Shown here one piece after another: positions 5,331-43,999 of a DNA stretch of 64,000 bases. How positions within the stretch are numbered: the first letter of the stretch is position 1; every line of letters starts with the position of its first letter. Origin of the DNA: a virus. The notes below the pieces were generated by a model. That model had not been told where the DNA came from and did not search any database. It saw nothing but the letters and a program-made list of their open reading frames with translations. The stretch covers positions 1-64,000 of IMG/VR virus record IMGVR_UViG_3300009034_000013; one strand, given 5' to 3'. The position numbers were made by a program, and so were the translations under genes.

Positions 5331-6686
5331 ATGAATTTATTAAATATACTTTTTAGAAAAAGAAAAAAGAAAATAAAAATACATGCATCTATTCCTGAAG
5401 GAGGATCAGTTGATATTACAAGTACTTCTATTACAGGAAGAATCTCAACAGAAGCAACACAAAAGAAAAATCAATACAAAACTTATGCAGCTACGATTAT
5501 TGGAATATATGATATGTTTAATAATGCTAAAGATTTTGGAGGCGAGTTCATAAAAAGTATATTAAGAACAAGAGTTGCTTTTATTGCTGGTGGAGGAGTT
5601 ACTGTAATAGCAGAAAAAGAAAGAACAGCTAAATGGATTACTGATTTTTTAACATATAATAAATTATTAGAAGGAAGTAATTTATTTAGATATGTTCTTA
5701 CTTCTGAAATGGAAGGAAAAACATTATTAATAATTAAGCCTAACAAAGATAAAACAAAAATAGATGTAAGAATGTTTATATATAAGAAAAATCCTTATGT
5801 TGTTGATATGGATAAGAAAGATGATCAAGTAATTAAATCTGTAACTTATAAATCAGAAAGAGAAACAAAAGTAGAGGAAGTTGCTAATATAGACAATCTT
5901 GTCTATATTAAAATAGGGGGTAGTCCAGATAAAGTGAATGAAACGACTCCAGTTGTGGGTAATTGTTTAACTGATGTTGAAAATGCAAGTAGGATAAAAT
6001 ATGATTTGAGATATAATAATCATTTATTTGGTAAACTAACACCTTCTTTCAAAACGAATGATATGGTTGAAGCAAAAGCCTTGAATAATTTATTATTAAC
6101 TACTGATTGGAAAACAGGAAGGACTTATGTTGGAACAGCCGAATTAAAATTAGTTGGTCCTCCTCCAGAAGCAACAGAAGCTTTAATTATGGAATTGAAA
6201 ACAGCTTGTAGGATTATTAGTATGAATACTGGAATACCTATTCATTGGTTGTCTTGGCCAGATCTTATGTCGAATAGATCAACAGCGGAAAATTTAATGG
6301 AGGTAGTTAATGCTGCTACAATAATGGAAAGAGAAATATGGGAAGAAGGATTAACAGAATTAATACAAAAAGCTATGATAATAGCCACTGAACTTGGAAT
6401 GCCAGAGGCTGTAAATGATCCTGATGGTTTTGAAATACGTTTACCTTTGATAAGTGAAGCTAAAATGAAAGAAATAAATGAAACTTGGATACCATTAGCT
6501 GATGGAGATTATGTAACAAAGGATAGTGTGAGAAATAAAATACCTGGAATAAATCCTTTATTTGAAAAGAAAATGATTGAAGATGAAAAAGAAGAAAGAT
6601 TAAATAAAATAAAAAATAAATTTAATAATGAATTAGTTGATGAAAATCATGAAGAAGAAAATGAAAAGGAGAAAATTGAAGAATGA
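5331..6686 (+). CDS. portal protein
   Basis: 451 aa, starting immediately after the terminase stop. The position, the basic N-terminus (LFRKRKKKIKIHAS) and the regions LGGxxxE-like ALIMELKTACRIISMNTGIPIH (read as two parts) and MSNRSTAENLMEV are typical of phage portals, which form the 12-subunit DNA channel. The C-terminal tail is strongly charged (EEENEKEKIEE), as is common in portals. It overlaps the next gene by 4 nt. Confidence 0.85.
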   Translation: MNLLNILFRKRKKKIKIHASIPEGGSVDITSTSITGRISTEATQKKNQYKTYAATIIGIYDMFNNAKDFGGEFIKSILRTRVAFIAGGGVTVIAEKERTAKWITDFLTYNKLLEGSNLFRYVLTSEMEGKTLLIIKPNKDKTKIDVRMFIYKKNPYVVDMDKKDDQVIKSVTYKSERETKVEEVANIDNLVYIKIGGSPDKVNETTPVVGNCLTDVENASRIKYDLRYNNHLFGKLTPSFKTNDMVEAKALNNLLLTTDWKTGRTYVGTAELKLVGPPPEATEALIMELKTACRIISMNTGIPIHWLSWPDLMSNRSTAENLMEVVNAATIMEREIWEEGLTELIQKAMIIATELGMPEAVNDPDGFEIRLPLISEAKMKEINETWIPLADGDYVTKDSVRNKIPGINPLFEKKMIEDEKEERLNKIKNKFNNELVDENHEEENEKEKIEE

Positions 6687-18162: not shown

Positions 18163-18833
18163 ATATAGCATTAGTTCTATTAGCAAGAATTGGAAGCAAA
18201 AGAATTCCTAAAAAACCACTTGTTAAACTTGGTGGAAAATATTTAATTGAATGGACATTAAATATTATGAGACAACTTCCATATCCTTCTTATATATTTT
18301 CTGATAGTGAACAAGTAAAAGATATTGTTAGAGAATATAAATTAAATGCAAGAGATAAAATTTTAGAAAATAAGGAAGGAAAACATTATACATCAGAAGA
18401 ATTGAAAGAATATAATAAAGAAATGAATGCAGATATTATTGTTTTATTTCAATCAACTTCCCCATTTAAAAATTTAGAATTAATAAATCAATGGATATTA
18501 GAATTTCCTTTGTATAATGTTAATTGTGCTTTTACTGTTTATCCTGTTATAGGCATTTTTTACACAGAAGATGGTAAAAGGATTTGGCCTATATATAGAG
18601 GATATGAGAATAATAAAAGATTATACAAAGAAACTGGATCTATATATATATTTGAAAAAGAGCAGATTGAAAAAGATCATATAACATTAGGCACAAAAAA
18701 ATTATTAATAGATCCTTATGATTTTGATATTGATACGTATGAAGATTTGAAAGAAGCAGAATTATTTTTAAAAGAAGAAGAAAAGTATAATAGAGTTAAT
18801 AGGAAAGAAAATGAAAACACATTTGATTCTTGA
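18159..18833 (+). CDS. neuA: CMP-nonulosonic acid cytidylyltransferase (NeuA-like)
   Basis: 224 aa. LARIGSKRIPKKPLVKLGGK (8-27) is the CTP-binding R-x-x-S-K-x-x-x-x-K loop of acylneuraminate and KDO cytidylyltransferases. VLFQSTSPFKN matches the LLQPTSP motif. ETGSIYIF and DPYDFDIDTYEDL complete the family pattern. It activates sialic acid-like sugars as CMP-sugars in the cytoplasm. Next to NeuB- and NanE-like genes, with short overlaps. Confidence 0.85.
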   Translation: MNIALVLLARIGSKRIPKKPLVKLGGKYLIEWTLNIMRQLPYPSYIFSDSEQVKDIVREYKLNARDKILENKEGKHYTSEELKEYNKEMNADIIVLFQSTSPFKNLELINQWILEFPLYNVNCAFTVYPVIGIFYTEDGKRIWPIYRGYENNKRLYKETGSIYIFEKEQIEKDHITLGTKKLLIDPYDFDIDTYEDLKEAELFLKEEEKYNRVNRKENENTFDS

Positions 18834-19644
18834 GACGGGGTGTAATCATCAAGGTGATTTTAATATAGCTAAAAAAATGATAGATGAAGCATCTAAATTA
18901 AATATTTGGGCTGTTAAATTTCAAAAAAGAGATATTGAATCATTTTCAAAAGAATTAAAAAATATACCAAGAGATTTAAATAATTCTTTTGGAATAAATT
19001 ATTATGAGCACAGAAAAGTATTAGAATTTTCTTGTGAAGAAATTAAAGAATTGATGGAATATGCTAATCAAAAGAATCTTGTTTTTATATGTTCTGCATT
19101 TGATGAAAGAAGTATTTACGATTTAATTAAAATTGAATGTAAATGGATTAAATTGCCTTCTCAATTATTTACAAATAAATATTTTAAAGAAATACTTCTA
19201 AATATTAAAAAAAGTGAAGGAACAAAAATAATTGTTTCAACTGGGATGCATGAAGATGAAGAAATATTTGTAAATAGTTGGATAAGTCATGCTGATGTTG
19301 TTCTACATTGTATTTCTACATACCCAACAACTTTGACAAAAATGAATTTAAATATGTTACAAAAATTAAAAAGAAATGTTGTAAAAGAAATAGGCTATTC
19401 ATCTCATGAAAATGAAGGTTATGGAATAAAATATGCTGTTATGTGTGGGGCTAAATATATAGAAAGGCATTTTACTTTGAATAAAGAATGGAAAGGTTCA
19501 GATCATGGAACTGTCTCAAGTGATCCTCCTGAAATAGAAAGAATAATTTCTGATATTAAATGGGCTGAAAGAATACTTGGAGAAGGAAACAGAAAATGTG
19601 CTTTGAAAGAAAGAAAAGTTAGAAAAATATATAGAGGATTTTGA
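18811..19644 (+). CDS. neuB: nonulosonic acid synthase (NeuB-like, without SAF domain)
   Basis: 277 aa. It has LETGCNHQGD (E-x-G-x-NH-x-G), VKFQKRD, CISTYPTTLTKMNL, GYSSHENEGYG, IERHFTLNKEWKGSDHG and SSDPPE, the ordered motifs of the PEP-dependent TIM-barrel synthases that condense PEP with ManNAc, ManNAc-6-P or related sugars. Usual NeuB is ~340 aa with a C-terminal antifreeze-like SAF domain; that domain is absent here. The last ~15 residues are basic. Confidence 0.85.
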   Translation: MKTHLILETGCNHQGDFNIAKKMIDEASKLNIWAVKFQKRDIESFSKELKNIPRDLNNSFGINYYEHRKVLEFSCEEIKELMEYANQKNLVFICSAFDERSIYDLIKIECKWIKLPSQLFTNKYFKEILLNIKKSEGTKIIVSTGMHEDEEIFVNSWISHADVVLHCISTYPTTLTKMNLNMLQKLKRNVVKEIGYSSHENEGYGIKYAVMCGAKYIERHFTLNKEWKGSDHGTVSSDPPEIERIISDIKWAERILGEGNRKCALKERKVRKIYRGF

Positions 19645-20282
19645 TGTTAAGCAAAGGATTAATTGTATCAGTTCAAGGTTATTCAAGAAAAACAACAGAA
19701 GAATTAATTATTGAGATTGCAAATGCCGGAGCTGTAGCAATTAGAACAGATAAAAAATCTAATAGCAGATTGCCTTTGATTGGCTTGATTAAAAATAAAG
19801 TTAGAGATAGAAAAGAATGCGCTTATATAACTAATACATTAGACACTGTTAAAGAAGTTGAAAAATGGACAAAATATATAGCTATTGATTATAGAATTAT
19901 AAATGATGAATTAGAAGAAATAAGTAATTATTGTAAAGAAAAAAGACTAATTGTTATTGCTGATATTTCTAATATATTTGATTATATGACTATTAAAGAA
20001 AATGATTATTATTATTCTTATATAGCAACAACATTAAGCGTACTTTTTAATGAAGGATATAATCCTGATTTTGAATTAATTGAAAAACTCAATAGAGAAG
20101 GATGTAAAAATATAATAGCAGAAGGAAATTTTTATCAAAGAAATCAATTATATACAGCTTATGAGCTTGGGGCATGTAATGTATGTGTTGGTAATGCTAT
20201 TACTAATGTTTTTAGATTAACAAGGAATTTTTCATCAGTAAATATAAGAGAGAATAGAAATGAAGATACCAAAAGAATTTAA
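19641..20282 (+). CDS. nanE: N-acetylmannosamine-6-phosphate 2-epimerase-like (NanE-like)
   Basis: 213 aa. GLIVSVQGYSRKTTEELI, NAGAVAIRTD, LIGLIKNK, VIADISN, YIATTLS, PDFELIEKL, IIAEGNFY and GACNVCVGNAITNVFRLT follow the NanE order. The catalytic Lys (GLIK) and Glu (AEG) are present. NanE interconverts ManNAc-6-P and GlcNAc-6-P. Here it probably runs toward ManNAc-6-P to feed the synthase, which is inference from context. Confidence 0.8.
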   Translation: MMLSKGLIVSVQGYSRKTTEELIIEIANAGAVAIRTDKKSNSRLPLIGLIKNKVRDRKECAYITNTLDTVKEVEKWTKYIAIDYRIINDELEEISNYCKEKRLIVIADISNIFDYMTIKENDYYYSYIATTLSVLFNEGYNPDFELIEKLNREGCKNIIAEGNFYQRNQLYTAYELGACNVCVGNAITNVFRLTRNFSSVNIRENRNEDTKRI

Positions 20283-20568
20283 ATTAATGGGGCAAACTAT
20301 AAATGTAGAATATAAAAATAAACTTATACAGGAAACAGACTGTATTGGACAAGCATCCTATAGAGAAAATAAAATTTTTCTGCAAAAACAAGTAGAAGGA
20401 ATTACAAGAAAAAAAGAAATGATAGAACAGACATTTTTACATGAACTTCTACATTTTATTTTAGACAGAATGGGAGAAAATGAATTAAGGGATAATGAAA
20501 AATTTATCAACATGTTTTCTGGTTTACTTCATCAATATATTGAATCAAATAAAGGAGAATTGAAATGA
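20260..20568 (+). CDS. small zinc metallopeptidase-like protein
   Basis: 102 aa, overlapping the previous gene by 23 nt. TFLHELLHFILDRMGENEL carries HExxH (HELLH) with a following acidic residue, as in SprT/ImmA-like or phage-type small gluzincins. The substrate is unknown and its place in a sugar cassette is puzzling. Confidence 0.6.
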   Translation: MKIPKEFKLMGQTINVEYKNKLIQETDCIGQASYRENKIFLQKQVEGITRKKEMIEQTFLHELLHFILDRMGENELRDNEKFINMFSGLLHQYIESNKGELK

Positions 20569-20891
20569 CTTTTATCATTGATATCGACGATACAATTTTA
20601 GTAGCTAATAAAATTAAATGTGATAAATGTAATCGACTATCATATGAAAATGCAGAACCTATTTTAAATGAAATTGAAGCAGTTAATAAATTATATAGCC
20701 TTGGTCATATAATAATATTTCTTACAGGAAGGAATTGGGATTGTTATAAACAAACAGTCATTCAATTATATTCATTAAAAGTAAAATATCATAATTTGAT
20801 TATGGGCAAACCTCAAGGAATTTATATAGATAGAACAGATAATTTGAACAGCGTATTTCAAGCATTAAAATTAGTAGGAGAAAAAAACTAA
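20565..20891 (+). CDS. HAD-family phosphatase
   Basis: 108 aa. DIDDTIL (motif I, D-x-D-D-T), IIFLTGR (motif II) and MGKPQG (motif III Lys) define a compact HAD hydrolase of the capsule-biosynthesis type. A small CDKC insert lies near residues 19-22. Beside NanE, NeuB and NeuA homologues it could remove the 9-phosphate from a nonulosonic acid 9-phosphate, which would complete the pathway. That substrate is inferred only from neighbours. Confidence 0.75.
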   Translation: MTFIIDIDDTILVANKIKCDKCNRLSYENAEPILNEIEAVNKLYSLGHIIIFLTGRNWDCYKQTVIQLYSLKVKYHNLIMGKPQGIYIDRTDNLNSVFQALKLVGEKN

Positions 20892-21644
20892 ATGGAATTT
20901 ATCTTAATTATTTTGGCTTTTATATGTGAATTTATTGATTCGAGTTTAGGTATGGGATTTGGGACAACATTAACTCCTATATTATTATTAATGGGATTTG
21001 AAGCCATACAAATTGTTCCTTGTATTTTATTATCAGAATTATGTTCTGGTATTTTTTCAGCCATATTACATCACAAAGCTGGGAATGTTAATTTTAAAAC
21101 AAATTCAAAAGATTTAAAAATAGCATTAATAGTAGGTTCTTTTTCAATAATAGGATGTATTATAGCTGTTAATATTGCAATATCTATACCAAAAAATATA
21201 TTGAATTTAATTATTTCCTGTATTGTAATATCTATGGGGATAATTATTTTAGTTACATTTAATAAGAAAACAAAATTTGCTTGGTGGAAAGTAGGGGTAT
21301 TAGGAACAATAGCAAGTTTTAATAAAGGCTTATCAGGTGGAGGATATGGTCCTGTTGTTATGGGGGGTCAAGTATTTTCTGGAGTGAAAACAAAAAATGC
21401 TATAGGAATTACAAGTTTTGCAGAAAGTATGACTTGTTTGATTGGGATAATTATATTTTTAATTGCTGGAAAATTATTAAGTTTAAATATATTACCTTTT
21501 ATAATAGTAGGAGCGATGTTATCTGTTCCTTTATCTGTATTTATAGTGAAAAAGTTACCAGAGAAAAAATTAAAAATTGGAGTAGGTATTTTTATTATTG
21601 GATTGGGAATATTTACTTTGCTAAAATTATTTTTATGGGGTTGA
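20892..21644 (+). CDS. TauE/SafE (TSUP) family transporter
   Basis: 250 aa, about eight membrane segments. The N-terminus FIDSSLGMGFGTTLTPILL and the internal repeat FNKGLSGGGYGPVVMGGQV are the two half-repeat signatures of the TSUP family, which carries sulfite, sulfate, sulfoacetate or other organic anions. Phage copies are rare in my knowledge. Sulfotransferases lie directly downstream and an APS kinase at 36 kb, so sulfur-anion transport is plausible. Confidence 0.8.
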   Translation: MEFILIILAFICEFIDSSLGMGFGTTLTPILLLMGFEAIQIVPCILLSELCSGIFSAILHHKAGNVNFKTNSKDLKIALIVGSFSIIGCIIAVNIAISIPKNILNLIISCIVISMGIIILVTFNKKTKFAWWKVGVLGTIASFNKGLSGGGYGPVVMGGQVFSGVKTKNAIGITSFAESMTCLIGIIIFLIAGKLLSLNILPFIIVGAMLSVPLSVFIVKKLPEKKLKIGVGIFIIGLGIFTLLKLFLWG

Positions 21645-21647
21645 AAT

Positions 21648-22238
21648 ATGCTTTTAATAGCCCAACCAAAAAGCGCAAGCACCTTTTTACTAAAAACATT
21701 AGTTAAAATAATGAAAGTTAAATTTCAAAATGGTTTTGGTAAGGATATTGGTTGGAAACATTGTAAAGGATTTTCTGAAATACAAAAATATTTTGATACA
21801 ACTATTAAACGAAATTATGCTTTTTTGAAAACTTGGATATTGAATAAAGACATCATTTTGAAAGAATACATATTACCAACAGAACATCATAAAGAGATAA
21901 TTAAAAAGATAAATAATAAGATTGTTATATTATTGAGAAATCCAGAGGATTCTTATAATTGTTGCTATAAGCAATATAAACAATATAAAAAAGGAGAACT
22001 TGATAAAGAGATAATAGAAAAATTAAAACTTAATAGATTTGATGCAATTCATTTTTTCATATTTTTACAAGATTTAATTTTATTTAATAAAAAATGGAGA
22101 GATTTTGAATATGATAAGAAACTAATTATAACATATGAAGATTTAATGACAAACAAGTTGGAAACAATAAAAAAAATTTTAAAATTTTGGAGTTTTAAAA
22201 TTCCAAAAAAGATAAAATATTCGAAAGGAAAAAAGTAA
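21648..22238 (+). CDS. PAPS-dependent sulfotransferase
   Basis: 196 aa. QPKSASTF (6-13) is the 5'-phosphosulfate-binding loop (P-K-S-x-S/T-T) and IVILLRNPEDSYNCC (92-106), with Arg97 and Ser102, is the 3'-phosphate-binding region. LIITYEDL is also family-typical. It would transfer sulfate from PAPS to a sugar or other acceptor. It shares PILPTEH/KEH and LLRNP blocks with the next gene, so the two are paralogues. Confidence 0.8.
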   Translation: MLLIAQPKSASTFLLKTLVKIMKVKFQNGFGKDIGWKHCKGFSEIQKYFDTTIKRNYAFLKTWILNKDIILKEYILPTEHHKEIIKKINNKIVILLRNPEDSYNCCYKQYKQYKKGELDKEIIEKLKLNRFDAIHFFIFLQDLILFNKKWRDFEYDKKLIITYEDLMTNKLETIKKILKFWSFKIPKKIKYSKGKK

Positions 22239-23482
22239 TGTTTTGGATATCTCAACCTAAATCAGCAGGTTCAAGTTTGGCTTGTACATTGGCAAAAATA
22301 TTAAAGGCAAATTATGTTAATGGAAGAGTATATGAACATAAAAAGATATATTGTGAAGGATTTACTGAATTACAAAAATGGCATAACACTATGATACCAA
22401 GAACTGCAAAATTTTTATATGGATATTGTACTGGAACTAAAAATGTATATAAAGAACATATATTACCAACAAAAGAACATATGAAAATTATCAGAAATTT
22501 TAAATATGACATAATGATTCTTTTAAGAAATCCAATTGATTCTATTGATTGTTATAAAAGATTTGATTTAAATGAGATAAAAAAAAGACATGGAAGAAGT
22601 GGAATTGTAAATTTGATTGAAATAAAAAAAGATATAAATTTATTTTATAACAGATATATGAAAATTAAAAAAGAAAATCATTCTCATTTATTATTTATAA
22701 CTTTTGAAGATATTATAAATAATTTTTCTAAAACTTTAAAGAAAATATTTGAACATTATAAATTAATATTACCTAAAAATTATGAAAATATTAAATTGAA
22801 AAAAATTAAATATACAGGAATAGGAGAAAAGAGATCAAAAGAAAGATTAAATTTAGAACAATTGATGAAACGAGAATGGGAAAATGTCTCTCCAAGAATA
22901 GCTCATATTCAATTTAATGATGAGGATAGATTTTCTTTAAGATTTAAAACATTAGTTACAGATAAAATTAATTTAAAAAATAAAATTATAATTGATTATG
23001 GTTGTGGTGGAGGAGTAGCAGGAAAATATTTTTTAGATAATTTTAATATTAAAAAATATATTGGTTATGATATAGCTGAGAGAAGTTTAAATTCTGCTAA
23101 AAAAAGATTAAAGAAATATAAAAATACAAAATTTTATCTTATTGCTGATCATGATATAAAATTTAAACAAGAAAAATCAGATGTGTTTTGTTCTTTTTCT
23201 TGTTTAATGCATTTTCCTGATGAATTATATTTAAAAAGATTTTTAAAAAATGTAAATGAATGCAATGCTGAAATTGTAATATTAGAAATAAGAAACAAAA
23301 ATATTGGTACTGTATTTAAAAAACAACCATATAAAAATTTTGATGATTTGATAAAGGCTTGTATAACTAATCCAGAATATATATCAAAGAATCTCACTAA
23401 TTATATATTATATGAAAAAACAAATCAGAATACAGCTCCGACAAACTGTCAAATATTGTACTATAAGAGGAAATATGATTGA
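22238..23482 (+). CDS. sulfotransferase-methyltransferase fusion
   Basis: 414 aa. Residues 1-195 repeat the sulfotransferase pattern (QPKSAGSSL; IMILLRNPIDSIDCY; LLFITFEDI). Residues 212-414 are a class I methyltransferase with IIDYGCGGGVAGKYFL (251-266) and KKYIGYDIAERSL. The C-terminal domain is paralogous to the protein at 24277-24951 (PRIAH/PRSAH, GCGGG, KKYIG.DIA.RS, F.K.PYK). The likely product is a glycan that is both sulfated and methylated. No frame break is seen at the junction. Confidence 0.75.
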   Translation: MFWISQPKSAGSSLACTLAKILKANYVNGRVYEHKKIYCEGFTELQKWHNTMIPRTAKFLYGYCTGTKNVYKEHILPTKEHMKIIRNFKYDIMILLRNPIDSIDCYKRFDLNEIKKRHGRSGIVNLIEIKKDINLFYNRYMKIKKENHSHLLFITFEDIINNFSKTLKKIFEHYKLILPKNYENIKLKKIKYTGIGEKRSKERLNLEQLMKREWENVSPRIAHIQFNDEDRFSLRFKTLVTDKINLKNKIIIDYGCGGGVAGKYFLDNFNIKKYIGYDIAERSLNSAKKRLKKYKNTKFYLIADHDIKFKQEKSDVFCSFSCLMHFPDELYLKRFLKNVNECNAEIVILEIRNKNIGTVFKKQPYKNFDDLIKACITNPEYISKNLTNYILYEKTNQNTAPTNCQILYYKRKYD

Positions 23483-24290
23483 AAAAATAGAATTAAATAT
23501 AATTGATAATTGTAACTCAAAATGTATAATGTGTCCATCAAAGTTAATGTATAAAAGTGGAAAATCTATGTCTTATGATTTTATAAAAAAAATATTAAAT
23601 AATATAAAAGAATGTATTAAAAAAGAAATAATAATAAAAAAACCTACTATTATAATAGGTTTTTTTGGAGAACCATTTCTGGATTGTGAATTATTTAATA
23701 AAATAAATCTTATAAAAGAAGATGCTTCCAATTTAGGAATTGTTATTTATACGAATGGTTTATTATTGTATAAATATAAAAAACAAATATTAGAAAATAA
23801 AAAATTAATTGATAAATTAATTATAAGTAATTATGGAGATACTTTAGAAAAATTTAATCTTGTAACATCTCTAAATATAGAAAAAGATGTATTTAAAAAA
23901 ATGAAAGAAACGATTGAATTATTGAGAAATAAAATAAAAATGAGAATATGGAATGCTTGGAGAAATGGAGGATTATTTGATTTTTCAACAAGAGCAGGAA
24001 CAGTAAAAAAAATAAAGATAAAAGAAGAAACATATGGATGTAAACAAAATAGATTAAATTATCTTAATATATTATCTGATGGAAATTTAATCTTATGTTG
24101 CCAGGATTGGAAAAAAGAAACAATATTCGGAAATATAAAAGATAATAGATTAATAAATATATTAAAATCTGATAAATATAAAGATTTAATAGAGAAAGTT
24201 GAAGGCAGAAAAGAAAGCGATTTATTATTTATCTGCAAAAGGTGCAGATATTCAAAAATTGAAAAGGAGAATAATTATGATAACAACTAA
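23475..24290 (+). CDS. radical SAM/SPASM-type protein
   Basis: 271 aa from the ATG at 23475 (AAGAGG upstream). CNSKCIMCPS is the C-x3-C-x2-C cluster motif. IIGFFGEPFLD fits the GGEPLL-type motif, and YTNG matches too. C-terminal cysteines (YGCKQNR, LCCQDW, CKRCRY) suggest a SPASM-like auxiliary cluster domain. These enzymes modify peptides, sugars or cofactors. Inside this cassette a sugar or surface modification is the best guess. Confidence 0.75.
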   Translation: MIEKIELNIIDNCNSKCIMCPSKLMYKSGKSMSYDFIKKILNNIKECIKKEIIIKKPTIIIGFFGEPFLDCELFNKINLIKEDASNLGIVIYTNGLLLYKYKKQILENKKLIDKLIISNYGDTLEKFNLVTSLNIEKDVFKKMKETIELLRNKIKMRIWNAWRNGGLFDFSTRAGTVKKIKIKEETYGCKQNRLNYLNILSDGNLILCCQDWKKETIFGNIKDNRLINILKSDKYKDLIEKVEGRKESDLLFICKRCRYSKIEKENNYDNN

Positions 24291-36104: not shown

Positions 36105-36953
36105 GTGAAATATAATCTATTTATTGGTAGGTGGTCACCATTTCATGAAGGACACAAATATATAATTGATTCATTTGTTAATAATAAAAAACCTGTTTGT
36201 ATTGCAATTAGAGAAACTCCATTATCTTTATCAGATCCATTTCCAATAGAATTAAGAGAAAGAAAAATTAAAGAAATATATCAAAAAAACGAACTTGTAA
36301 AAGTTATTAGAATACCAGATATTGATACTGTGTGTGTTGGTAGAGGAGTTGGATATTCTATAATGGAAGTACCACAAAACATAACCAAAATATCAGGTAC
36401 TGAAAAAAGAAAAATGAAATGTGATACCTGGAATAATGGTAAAGGAAAAATATTATGGTTCACCGGATTACCTTGTTCTGGAAAAACCACTATTGCAAAT
36501 CAATTATTATTAGAAATACAGAAAGATAAAGTTTTGTTAGATGGAGATATTTTCCGAAAAGAAGTTACTCCTCATTTAGGATTTTCAAAAGAAGATCGAA
36601 TTGAAAATATAATGACAGCTTTTAATATAGCTAAAATATTATGTAATCATGGATTGATAGTTTTATGTTGTTTTGTTTCTCCTATTGCTTATATTAGAAA
36701 ACAATTTAAAGAACAAATAGGAAATAAATTTAAGGAAATATATGTTAAATGTAGAAAGGAGGTATGTAGTAGTAGAGATGTTAAGGGAATGTGGGCCAAG
36801 GCTATAAGAGGAGAAATAAAAAATTTTACTGGATATAATGATTCTTATGAAATTCCTAATAATCCTGATTTAGTTTTAAATACTGAAAAATATTCCGTTA
36901 ATGAATGTATAAAAAAAGTAAAAAAAAATTTAATGCATAAAGAGGAAGAGTAA
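36105..36953 (+). CDS. cysC: nucleotidyltransferase-like domain fused to APS kinase
   Basis: 282 aa, GTG start with AAGGAA upstream. Residues 1-105 form an HxGH nucleotidyltransferase fold (GRWSPFHEGH, 8-17; ISGTEKR, 96-102). Residues 113-282 are APS kinase: Walker A GLPCSGKT (121-128), LLDGDIFR (144-151), LGFSKEDRIEN (158-168), CFVSPIAYIR. APS kinase makes PAPS, the donor for sulfotransferases such as those at 21.6-23.5 kb. The N-terminal domain resembles NadM-like phage nucleotidyltransferases; ATP sulfurylase shares the superfamily, so an APS-forming role is possible but unproven. Confidence 0.85.
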   Translation: MKYNLFIGRWSPFHEGHKYIIDSFVNNKKPVCIAIRETPLSLSDPFPIELRERKIKEIYQKNELVKVIRIPDIDTVCVGRGVGYSIMEVPQNITKISGTEKRKMKCDTWNNGKGKILWFTGLPCSGKTTIANQLLLEIQKDKVLLDGDIFRKEVTPHLGFSKEDRIENIMTAFNIAKILCNHGLIVLCCFVSPIAYIRKQFKEQIGNKFKEIYVKCRKEVCSSRDVKGMWAKAIRGEIKNFTGYNDSYEIPNNPDLVLNTEKYSVNECIKKVKKNLMHKEEE

Positions 36954-42596: not shown

Positions 42597-43004
42597 TTAT
42601 TTTCCAGTACAAACTTTCTTGATTTTATTTGCTACTATACATAGTGCAGATAATGTGATTAACTTTTCTGTCAGTTTATCATTTTCCATTAATAATTCTT
42701 GAATATTCTTTTTCTTTTTTCTTAAAGATAACCATTCATCTTTTTCCTTCCTGCATTTTTCTAATGATTCATCTAACCATGAAAATAATACCCCATTTTC
42801 TGTTCTGTATTCATAGAAACATTCTTCTTTTTTTGTGAAAGGATTCAGAAATTTTTCATATATTTCTTTTCCTGATTTACATTTTGATCTTCCTGATTTA
42901 TCCCAGAAATTGGATTTTGTGTAATATCCATTTACTTTATTTAATGTTATTTCATCGATTGGTAAGCTCGTTTTTGGATACGTAATCCCAAATTTTCTTT
43001 CCAT
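42597..43004 (-). CDS. hypothetical protein, 135 aa
   Basis: Start at 43004 behind GAGGAGGG; the longer frame to 43094 runs through the ribozyme and is rejected. Basic, with KSGRSKCKSGKEIYEKF, CFYEYRTENGVLFSWLDESL and a coiled C-terminus ending in a hydrophobic patch (ITLSALCIVANK). Not recognised. Confidence 0.55.
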   Translation of the reverse strand: MERKFGITYPKTSLPIDEITLNKVNGYYTKSNFWDKSGRSKCKSGKEIYEKFLNPFTKKEECFYEYRTENGVLFSWLDESLEKCRKEKDEWLSLRKKKKNIQELLMENDKLTEKLITLSALCIVANKIKKVCTGK

Positions 43005-43016
43005 AATACCCTCCTC

Positions 43017-43078
43017 AAGGTTGTTTCGGCAATGCTTTGCCTTCATCAGTACCTCAGCATCAGAGGTAGACAGACCCC
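43017..43078 (-). ncRNA. hammerhead ribozyme, type III topology
   Basis: Minus-strand RNA. Cleavage triplet GUC ends at C43069. Stem I: UACCUC (43068-43063) with GAGGUA (43055-43050), 7-nt loop. Core CUGAUGA at 43049-43043, one extra A at 43042. Stem II: GGCAA (43041-43037) with UUGCC (43032-43028), AGCA loop. GAAAC at 43027-43023. Stem III: UGU (43072-43070) with ACA (43024-43022), then a bulged C and up to 5 more pairs (43074-43078 with 43021-43017). Every conserved core position is present. It ends just before the Shine-Dalgarno site of the 135-aa gene. Confidence 0.85.
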
Positions 43079-43123
43079 GGTTTCCCAGGGTCACCTTAAG
43101 GAATAGGTCAGCTGTGCCTATCC
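43073..43123 (-). ncRNA. two hairpins upstream of the hammerhead
   Basis: On the minus strand GACCCUGG pairs with CCGGGGUC across a GAAA tetraloop (43092-43073), and GGAUAGG pairs with CCUAUUCC (43123-43100, one bulge). The first hairpin shares bases 43074-43078 with the outer part of ribozyme stem III, so the two folds compete. Confidence 0.6.
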
Positions 43124-43136
43124 CTCTATATTTCTA

Positions 43137-43580
43137 TTAATATAGTTGATTATATTCTTTTTCATTATTCCTCCTTTCTTCAATCTCTTCCTCCTCTTCA
43201 ATTTCTTCTTTCAAAAGATTTTCCCATTCATCGTATAAATCTAAAAAATCGCCATCTTCAATACATTCTATAATTGCTTCTTCTTCCGTCAATTTTCTCT
43301 CATCGTCTGTAGTGAATATTTCTGCCTCTTGATCCCAAGAACCCCAGCTCTCAAGATAATAAGATACATCAATATTTCCTAATCCCCACGCTTGGAGTAT
43401 CAGAATAGGTTGCTCATTTTCTGGATTTGGATATGTTCCAGAAGTTTGTGTACTAATTTTCCCATCTTCATAGATCCAGATTCTGGACCCAGAATTATTG
43501 AAAACCATTTCTTTGTGAACTTCCATCCAATTGATGGAAGCAAGTGTTTTTTGAAATCTCTTTGTATTTTGTTCGTTCAT
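43137..43580 (-). CDS. hypothetical acidic protein, 147 aa
   Basis: Start at 43580 behind GAGGAGGG. Contains ILQAWGLGNIDVSYYLESWG and a very acidic end (EEIEEEEEIEERRNNEKE). It is the first gene of the leftward operon, and such acidic early proteins sometimes mimic DNA or RNA; that role is a guess. Its leader ACCTTGAGGAGGGTATTATG is repeated before the next gene. Confidence 0.55.
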   Translation of the reverse strand: MNEQNTKRFQKTLASINWMEVHKEMVFNNSGSRIWIYEDGKISTQTSGTYPNPENEQPILILQAWGLGNIDVSYYLESWGSWDQEAEIFTTDDERKLTEEEAIIECIEDGDFLDLYDEWENLLKEEIEEEEEIEERRNNEKEYNQLY

Positions 43581-43649
43581 AATACCCTCCTCAAGGTCGG
43601 GGGCTTTTCTTGCCCCTCTAATTATAATATACAACAGAAAAATTAACTT

Positions 43650-43963
43650 CTGCTCCAGTCAATATTAATTGATTTATAACTTTTCTTATTACGTTTTTAT
43701 TCCATATAAAATAAAATCGACTTGAGAATCGAACCCAAGATAATCAACCATGTCGATTAGATGCAGAATCGAACTGCAATTAAAACCCATCTTGTTTTTG
43801 TGCTCCTTGATTACTCCTCATTTTCAATCATCCCAGTTTCTCTCAACTAATTTCATCTTGGATAATGGATACTGGACTTTCTTGATCTTAAGATCTCCGT
43901 GCCCCTGGTCTCCATCCAAGATAGGTTTTCTCCCCCATCTTGGACAAGGTTTTTATTACCTTA
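43650..43963 (-). ncRNA. structured leader RNA of the leftward operon
   Basis: The ~315-nt stretch between promoter and first gene is richer in G/C than its surroundings and folds well. It has AAGGU/ACCUU at the 5' end, an 11-bp stem (43944-43934 with 43925-43915), and an alternative 9-bp pairing of the same middle strand (43922-43914) with 43863-43855. Two T-arm-like hairpins lie near its 3' end. No coding frame is convincing here. Confidence 0.5.
43715..43758 (-). ncRNA. tRNA-like minihelix (acceptor plus T-arm)
   Basis: On the minus strand AAUCGAC (43758-43752) pairs with GUCGAUU (43721-43715), 7 bp, stacked directly on UUGGG/CUCAA with the canonical T-loop UUCGAUU (43738-43722). Only 13 nt replace the D and anticodon arms. 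A second perfect T-arm (UGCAG-UUCGAUU-CUGCA) lies at 43778-43762, just upstream. Not a normal tRNA. Confidence 0.5.
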
Positions 43964-43970
43964 TATTAAT

Positions 43971-43999
43971 AATATACTATATATGTAAGCAAAAGTAAA
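43971..43999 (-). promoter_or_regulatory. leftward early promoter
   Basis: On the minus strand TTTACT (43999-43994), 17-nt spacer, TATATT (43976-43971). Same TTTACTTTT type as the rightward promoters. Transcription would start near 43964, at the head of the structured leader. Confidence 0.65.

Follow-up and report, generated by a model that had tools for sequence, protein, structure and literature searches.

The virus record IMGVR_UViG_3300009034_000013 comprises 83,839 bases with a GC content of 26.7% and carries a terminase together with other phage genes. Within its first 64,000 nucleotides, the stretch of DNA analysed here (the window), two leftward-oriented genes of the same operon (43580-43137 and 43004-42597, minus strand) are separated by a gap of 132 bases. 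The upstream gene encodes an acidic protein of 147 aa that gave no match to PHROG or Pfam and belongs to no known family, and the downstream gene encodes a protein of 135 aa assigned to DUF3873 (PF12989, Pfam E = 8.2e-12), with tblastn matches in phages of Bacteroides and Parabacteroides. Translation of the latter starts at an AUG at 43004, preceded by the Shine-Dalgarno site GAGGAGGG (43009-43016). An exact repeat that contains such a site and the start region, ACCTTGAGGAGGGTATTATG, stands before both successive genes (43578-43597 and 43002-43021, minus strand).

Upstream of the gene at 43580-43137 lies a non-coding stretch that is richer in GC (43720-43980, minus strand) and contains two T-arm-like hairpins, GCAGTTCGATTCTGC and CTTGGGTTCGATTCTCAAG. 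Neither ARAGORN nor Rfam returned a match for it, and it possibly represents tRNA remnants or an unknown structured RNA. Genes for a NeuB-family synthase and a TauE/SafE exporter are found among the phage genes in the regions 18811-24290 and 36105-36953, and reading of the sequence adds, in the same regions, a sulfotransferase-like protein and a fusion of an adenylylsulfate kinase with a nucleotidyltransferase; together these genes perhaps serve sugar or sulfate decoration.

The gap between the two leftward genes harbours a hammerhead ribozyme of type III whose catalytic core is complete (43073-43021, minus strand). The whole element extends from about 43103 to 43011, further than the span of 43017-43078 first reported, while the distance of the predicted cut from the AUG, originally given as about 65 nt, holds at 64 nt. 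In minus-strand order the gap contains a hairpin (HpA), the segment UUCCUUAAGGU, a second hairpin (HpB), UGU, the cleavage-site nucleotide C17, stem-loop I, CUGAUGA, an extra A, stem-loop II, GAA, ACA, the segment ACCUUGAGGAG, the remainder of the Shine-Dalgarno site and the AUG. Three helices surround the core. Stem I has 6 bp (stem-loop I, UACCUC-UGAUGCU-GAGGUA, 43050-43068) and stem II has 5 bp (stem-loop II, GGCAA-AGCA-UUGCC, 43028-43041). Stem III is made of an inner helix of 3 bp (IIIa) and an outer helix of 11 bp (IIIb). In IIIa, UGU (U16.1-G16.2-U16.3, 43070-43072) pairs with ACA (A15.1-C15.2-A15.3), which follows G12, A13 and A14 within 43022-43027, and in IIIb UUCCUUAAGGU (43093-43103) pairs with ACCUUGAGGAG (43011-43021), whose sequence overlaps the Shine-Dalgarno site. 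Both ends of the molecule lie in stem III and loops close stems I and II, which is the type III topology. The core bases are all present: CUGAUGA (C3 to A9, 43049-43043), GAA (43027-43025), the A15.1-U16.1 pair (A43024-U43070) and C3-G8. The NUH triplet is GUC with C17 at 43069, and the alignment to the covariance model described below predicts cleavage between 43069 and 43068. GUC, the 6-bp stem-loop I, CUGAUGA, the 5-bp stem-loop II and GAAAC were all found where the original prediction had placed them.

The covariance-model search that had been proposed as a check was carried out with a model (R1) built from 15 phage type III hammerheads of IMG/VR, excluding the window element itself and any copy with an extra A. 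R1 matched the window element over its full length with 46.0 bits (E = 1.3e-12; R1 E-values are rough owing to a shortened calibration, though the margin is large), and this was its sole match in the window and in the whole 83,839-base record. Two insertions were required by the alignment, one for the extra A beside the core and one at the end of loop II. Among the 15 sequences of R1, both-sided changes occur in 10 of the 14 pairs; this covariation is not independent evidence, because stems I-III had served to select the sequences. The fold of the 89-nt element has a predicted energy of -41.2 kcal/mol (z = -6.46), a value reached by none of 200 shuffles. A descriptor of the bare core was not decisive, since comparably strong cores arose 3 times in 60 Markov-simulated windows. 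The independent model and the similarly placed ribozymes of other phages thus agree with the original claim of a hammerhead on the leftward transcript ahead of a start codon. The frame of the DUF3873 gene is open from 43094 to 42597, so that the stretch might be read as an N-terminal extension of the downstream protein that starts at a GTG at 43094 and folds by accident. We give this reading practically no credence, as the ATG at 43004 has a strong Shine-Dalgarno site and the GTG has none, the GC content of the stretch is far above the genome average of 26.7%, and the R1 score is beyond chance.

Rfam 15 gave no match in the window at gathering level, and the element was not retrieved as RF00008 even at E = 10, the only signal being a weak and off-register hit to Hammerhead_II (15.3 bits). 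Some 20 related type III copies from phages likewise go undetected at gathering level, among them L043 and L103, which score 44.2 and 33.6 bits against RF00008 and hence fall below its gathering score of 48.5. The miss therefore reflects a limit of the library, the gathering score being a cut-off and not a structural feature. A search for near relatives through both flanking proteins and the terminase recovered only an identical contig (IMGVR_UViG_3300009034_001352, 100% over 10.4 kb). The phage collection held no DNA match to the window ribozyme or its surroundings, nor to the copies L006 and L043, and no hammerhead was found near the DUF3873 loci of cultured Bacteroides-type phages.

A single departure from the consensus, already noted in the original prediction, is the extra A at 43042, which appears as an inserted position between A9 and stem II in the model alignment. 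The consensus carries no insertion at this point, although its absence is not strictly defining for hammerheads. The extra A does not exclude membership: in chrysanthemum chlorotic mottle viroid (CChMVd), the plus-strand hammerhead bears an A at this very place (A10, between A9 and G10.1), which slows it moderately but leaves it active (PMC3705267). An extra A together with intact stems was also found in the phage copies L003, L006, L014, L019 and L020, and in L298 and L302, which lie in genome contigs of Woesebacteria and Adlerbacteria; these copies were retrieved with a pattern that requires the A and do not provide an estimate of its frequency. Most matches to this pattern in genome contigs (all but 2 of 20) and many of the 22 viral matches are not hammerheads by the descriptor. 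One could argue from the extra core A, the inner stem III of only 3 bp and the alternative minimum-energy fold (see below) that the element is a remnant or a slow variant, whose structure acts mainly as a leader fold or decay barrier and whose cleavage is marginal. We consider this quite unlikely, given that all catalytic bases and the GUC triplet are intact, that the R1 score is high, and that the extra A recurs in intact copies (the five phage copies and L302) as well as in the active viroid ribozyme (PMC3705267).

In phage contigs, pattern scans followed by a stem test yielded 70 non-redundant hammerheads of type III and 229 of type I. The type III copies form a set A (n = 32) and a set B (n = 38), the latter gathered afterwards with another pattern; the 70 copies do not represent 70 independent events. 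A start codon with a Shine-Dalgarno site follows in 56 of the 70 (27/32 in set A and 29/38 in set B), compared to about 11 expected at random places (about 5 per set), and in 61 of the 70 an ORF on the same strand has its end no more than 250 nt upstream, a count that stands without a control. Neither the start codon nor the upstream ORF end had been used for finding the copies. Most type III copies, like that of the window, hence sit between same-strand genes and ahead of a start codon, and several phage records hold 3-4 hammerheads each. On the minus strand of the contig L279 (4225-3015) three type III hammerheads precede successive genes in series, at least two of them with an adjacent hairpin, which in one case is nested. 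A single phage can also combine types: in another phage contig, L142, Rfam detects a type II hammerhead (6181-6249) at a distance of about 0.8 kb from one of type III. Among cultured phages, RHEph01 and RHEph21 of Rhizobium contain one type III copy each (60.3 and 52.6 bits).

The loops of the window element could interact, as AUGCU of loop I can pair with AGCAU of loop II and its flank (5-6 bp). Across the 70 type III copies, loop I ending in GCU co-occurs with AGC in loop II (4/5, p = 0.001). A long kissing pseudoknot between loops I and II as a general feature finds no support, such long pairings being counted 10 times versus 7.4 with shuffled partners.

The hairpin HpB (GACCCUGG-GAAA-CCGGGGUC, 43073-43092) ends 3 nt before C17, in the same place as hairpins beside other phage type III hammerheads. 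For the survey we counted perfect stems of 5 bp or more, including 4 or more G-C pairs, that end no more than 8 nt upstream of stem III, with expectations taken from dinucleotide shuffles of the same stretches. By this test a hairpin precedes stem III in half of the type III copies (35/70, 4.3 expected) and is found at 8 of 225 type I copies (4.2 expected; Fisher p ~1.6e-18 for the contrast between types). Set A first revealed the effect (13/32 type III, 2.0 expected, vs 5/125 type I), which set B then reproduced (22/38, 2.3 expected, vs 3/100). The hairpin directly touches stem III in 22 of the 35 cases (gap 0), as HpB does in the window, and could be extended into stem III in 5 of the 35. 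It is not required for a type III hammerhead, since half of the copies lack one by this strict test. A difference between the types may account for the bias: the 5' product of a type I hammerhead ends just after a closed stem III hairpin, and in type III, where stem III is open, an extra hairpin would once more cap the 3' end. Type I copies without an extra hairpin are what such a model predicts.

Stems rich in GC with UUCG, GNRA-like and similar loops that follow a stop codon are also reminiscent of ordinary intrinsic terminators, which would belong to the upstream gene and have nothing to do with the ribozyme. This explanation is in our view very improbable: the hairpins are directly followed by stem III and not by a U-tract, they are nearly absent at type I hammerheads in spite of the similar placement of these, and a promoter/terminator scan placed no terminator at 43073-43092. 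A two-part phage cassette, to which we give slightly less than an even chance, would set a GC-rich hairpin directly followed by a type III hammerhead between operon genes, the hairpin capping the upstream product as the closed stem III does in type I. The window element would be an elaborated form of this cassette, with the hairpin nested in an extended stem III that covers the Shine-Dalgarno site.

The GAAA-capped hairpin had been proposed to compete with stem III. HpB nests inside stem III in both the minimum-energy and the active fold, forming in the latter a third arm between the 3-bp inner and the 11-bp outer helix, and its role as a competitor was dropped. The two folds (-41.2 vs -38.1 kcal/mol, energies that leave out tertiary contacts) differ mainly in the inner 3 bp, stem IIIa being re-paired in the former. 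A possible competitor of stem IIIb, and at the same time a possible element of product release, is HpA (GAGGGAUAGG / CCUAUUCCUU, 43098-43126), which is predicted in the fold of the 5' product and which shares part of its 3' arm with the 5' strand of IIIb. Because HpA recaptures this strand, the cut complex is predicted to be favoured over the separated fragments by only 3.0 kcal/mol, a margin small enough that the fragments could separate. Since the outer helix also covers much of the Shine-Dalgarno site of the DUF3873 gene, cleavage followed by separation of the fragments may alter its translation as well, an additional effect that is possible but less supported.

One form of this idea is a translation switch gated by cleavage, in which the Shine-Dalgarno site is masked by IIIb as long as the RNA is uncut and, after the cut, the 5' fragment refolds into HpA and leaves, so that the site is exposed and the DUF3873 gene turned on. 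The location of most of the site inside the 11-bp helix and the 3.0 kcal/mol margin brought about by HpA are in line with it. However, even on its own the 3' fragment forms a small ACCUU/AGGGU hairpin that holds half of the site in pairs, and the preceding gene, which has no ribozyme, carries an identical 18-nt Shine-Dalgarno-start sequence. In L279 (IMGVR_UViG_3300012919_001590), an unrelated phage contig in which an extended stem III (outer helix of 12 bp) likewise encloses the hairpin, the outer helix stops before the Shine-Dalgarno site, and such a helix is absent from most other phage copies. We therefore regard such a switch as unlikely. An outer helix as a general type III feature is unsupported, since helices of at least 9 bp occur in 2 of the 70 copies with 0.56 expected, L279 being the sole convincing one.

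The element shares with Rfam family RF00008 (Hammerhead_3, clan CL00010) the core, the three stems, the NUH site and the open stem III, and differs from it by the extra core A and the hairpin nested in stem III. A published counterpart in position is the hammerhead of the haloviruses HF1/HF2 (HHphage), which, in the available part of its description, is likewise a tailed-virus hammerhead on a polycistronic transcript directly upstream of a start codon (13 nt before that of a helicase), with an RNA 5' end mapped within three nt of the cleavage site (PMC3088659). Its insertion lies next to C3 and stem I, unlike that of the window element, which follows A9, and a nested hairpin is not among the features described in that part; a related variant, HHmeta, is given there as nearly inactive outside high salt (PMC3088659). 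The available part of Perreault et al. (2011) also covers prophage hammerheads, proposed to process long phage transcripts, with cleavage of arrays shown in vitro; in the arrays of C. scindens, A. caulinodans and A. tumefaciens several hammerheads per transcript flank single genes, and no hairpin partner of type III is mentioned in that part (PMC3088659). The CChMVd hammerhead shares the extra A but serves rolling-circle replication of the viroid, whereas the window element is part of an mRNA leader (PMC3705267). The copies in RHEph01 and RHEph21, which are unrelated phages (Autographiviridae), have neither the extra A nor the nested hairpin, although loop I of RHEph01 (TGATGCT) is identical to that of the window element. 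The RiboJ insulator resembles the phage arrangement in joining a hammerhead, that of sTRSV, to a companion hairpin in a bacterial 5' UTR and in creating a defined 5' end, but it is man-made and its hairpin is located downstream of the ribozyme, whereas in the phage element it precedes the ribozyme and hence would remain on the other cleavage product (PMC8794103). The two may work alike by analogy, which does not imply kinship. A text search of the literature for a hairpin associated with phage hammerheads of type III brought up no such description; its coverage left out most subscription papers and preprints, so that novelty is unproven.

Computation supports the identity, anatomy and position of the hammerhead and the recurrence of hairpin, type III ribozyme and start codon in phages; cleavage, protection of the 3' end by the hairpin and any effect on translation we infer from this arrangement. 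The most probable function, and one we hold with some confidence, is that of an internal mRNA-processing element of the phage operon, predicted to cut between the two co-oriented genes. The leftward polycistronic transcript would be cut once, after C43069. The upstream fragment would then end in the GC-rich GAAA hairpin followed by UGUC with a 2',3'-cyclic phosphate, and should resist 3'-to-5' exonucleases. The downstream DUF3873 mRNA would carry a 5'-OH and open with stem-loop I at 64 nt from its start codon, giving a structured 5' end with neither triphosphate nor monophosphate. Enzymes of RNA decay use a 5' triphosphate or monophosphate, and neither product end should be readily attacked by exonucleases or by decay that depends on a 5' phosphate.

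What hammerheads do in bacteria and phages has been an open question since 2011, and their role in prokaryotes was still called open in a 2017 review (PMC6155905). The presence of a hairpin with type III but not with type I hammerheads offers a specific and testable clue that points to protected mRNA ends, and provides a natural resemblance to the ribozyme insulators of synthetic biology. Many phage hammerheads are overlooked by a current RNA family library, and our survey suggests a way in which phages may divide a long message into individual, protected segments.
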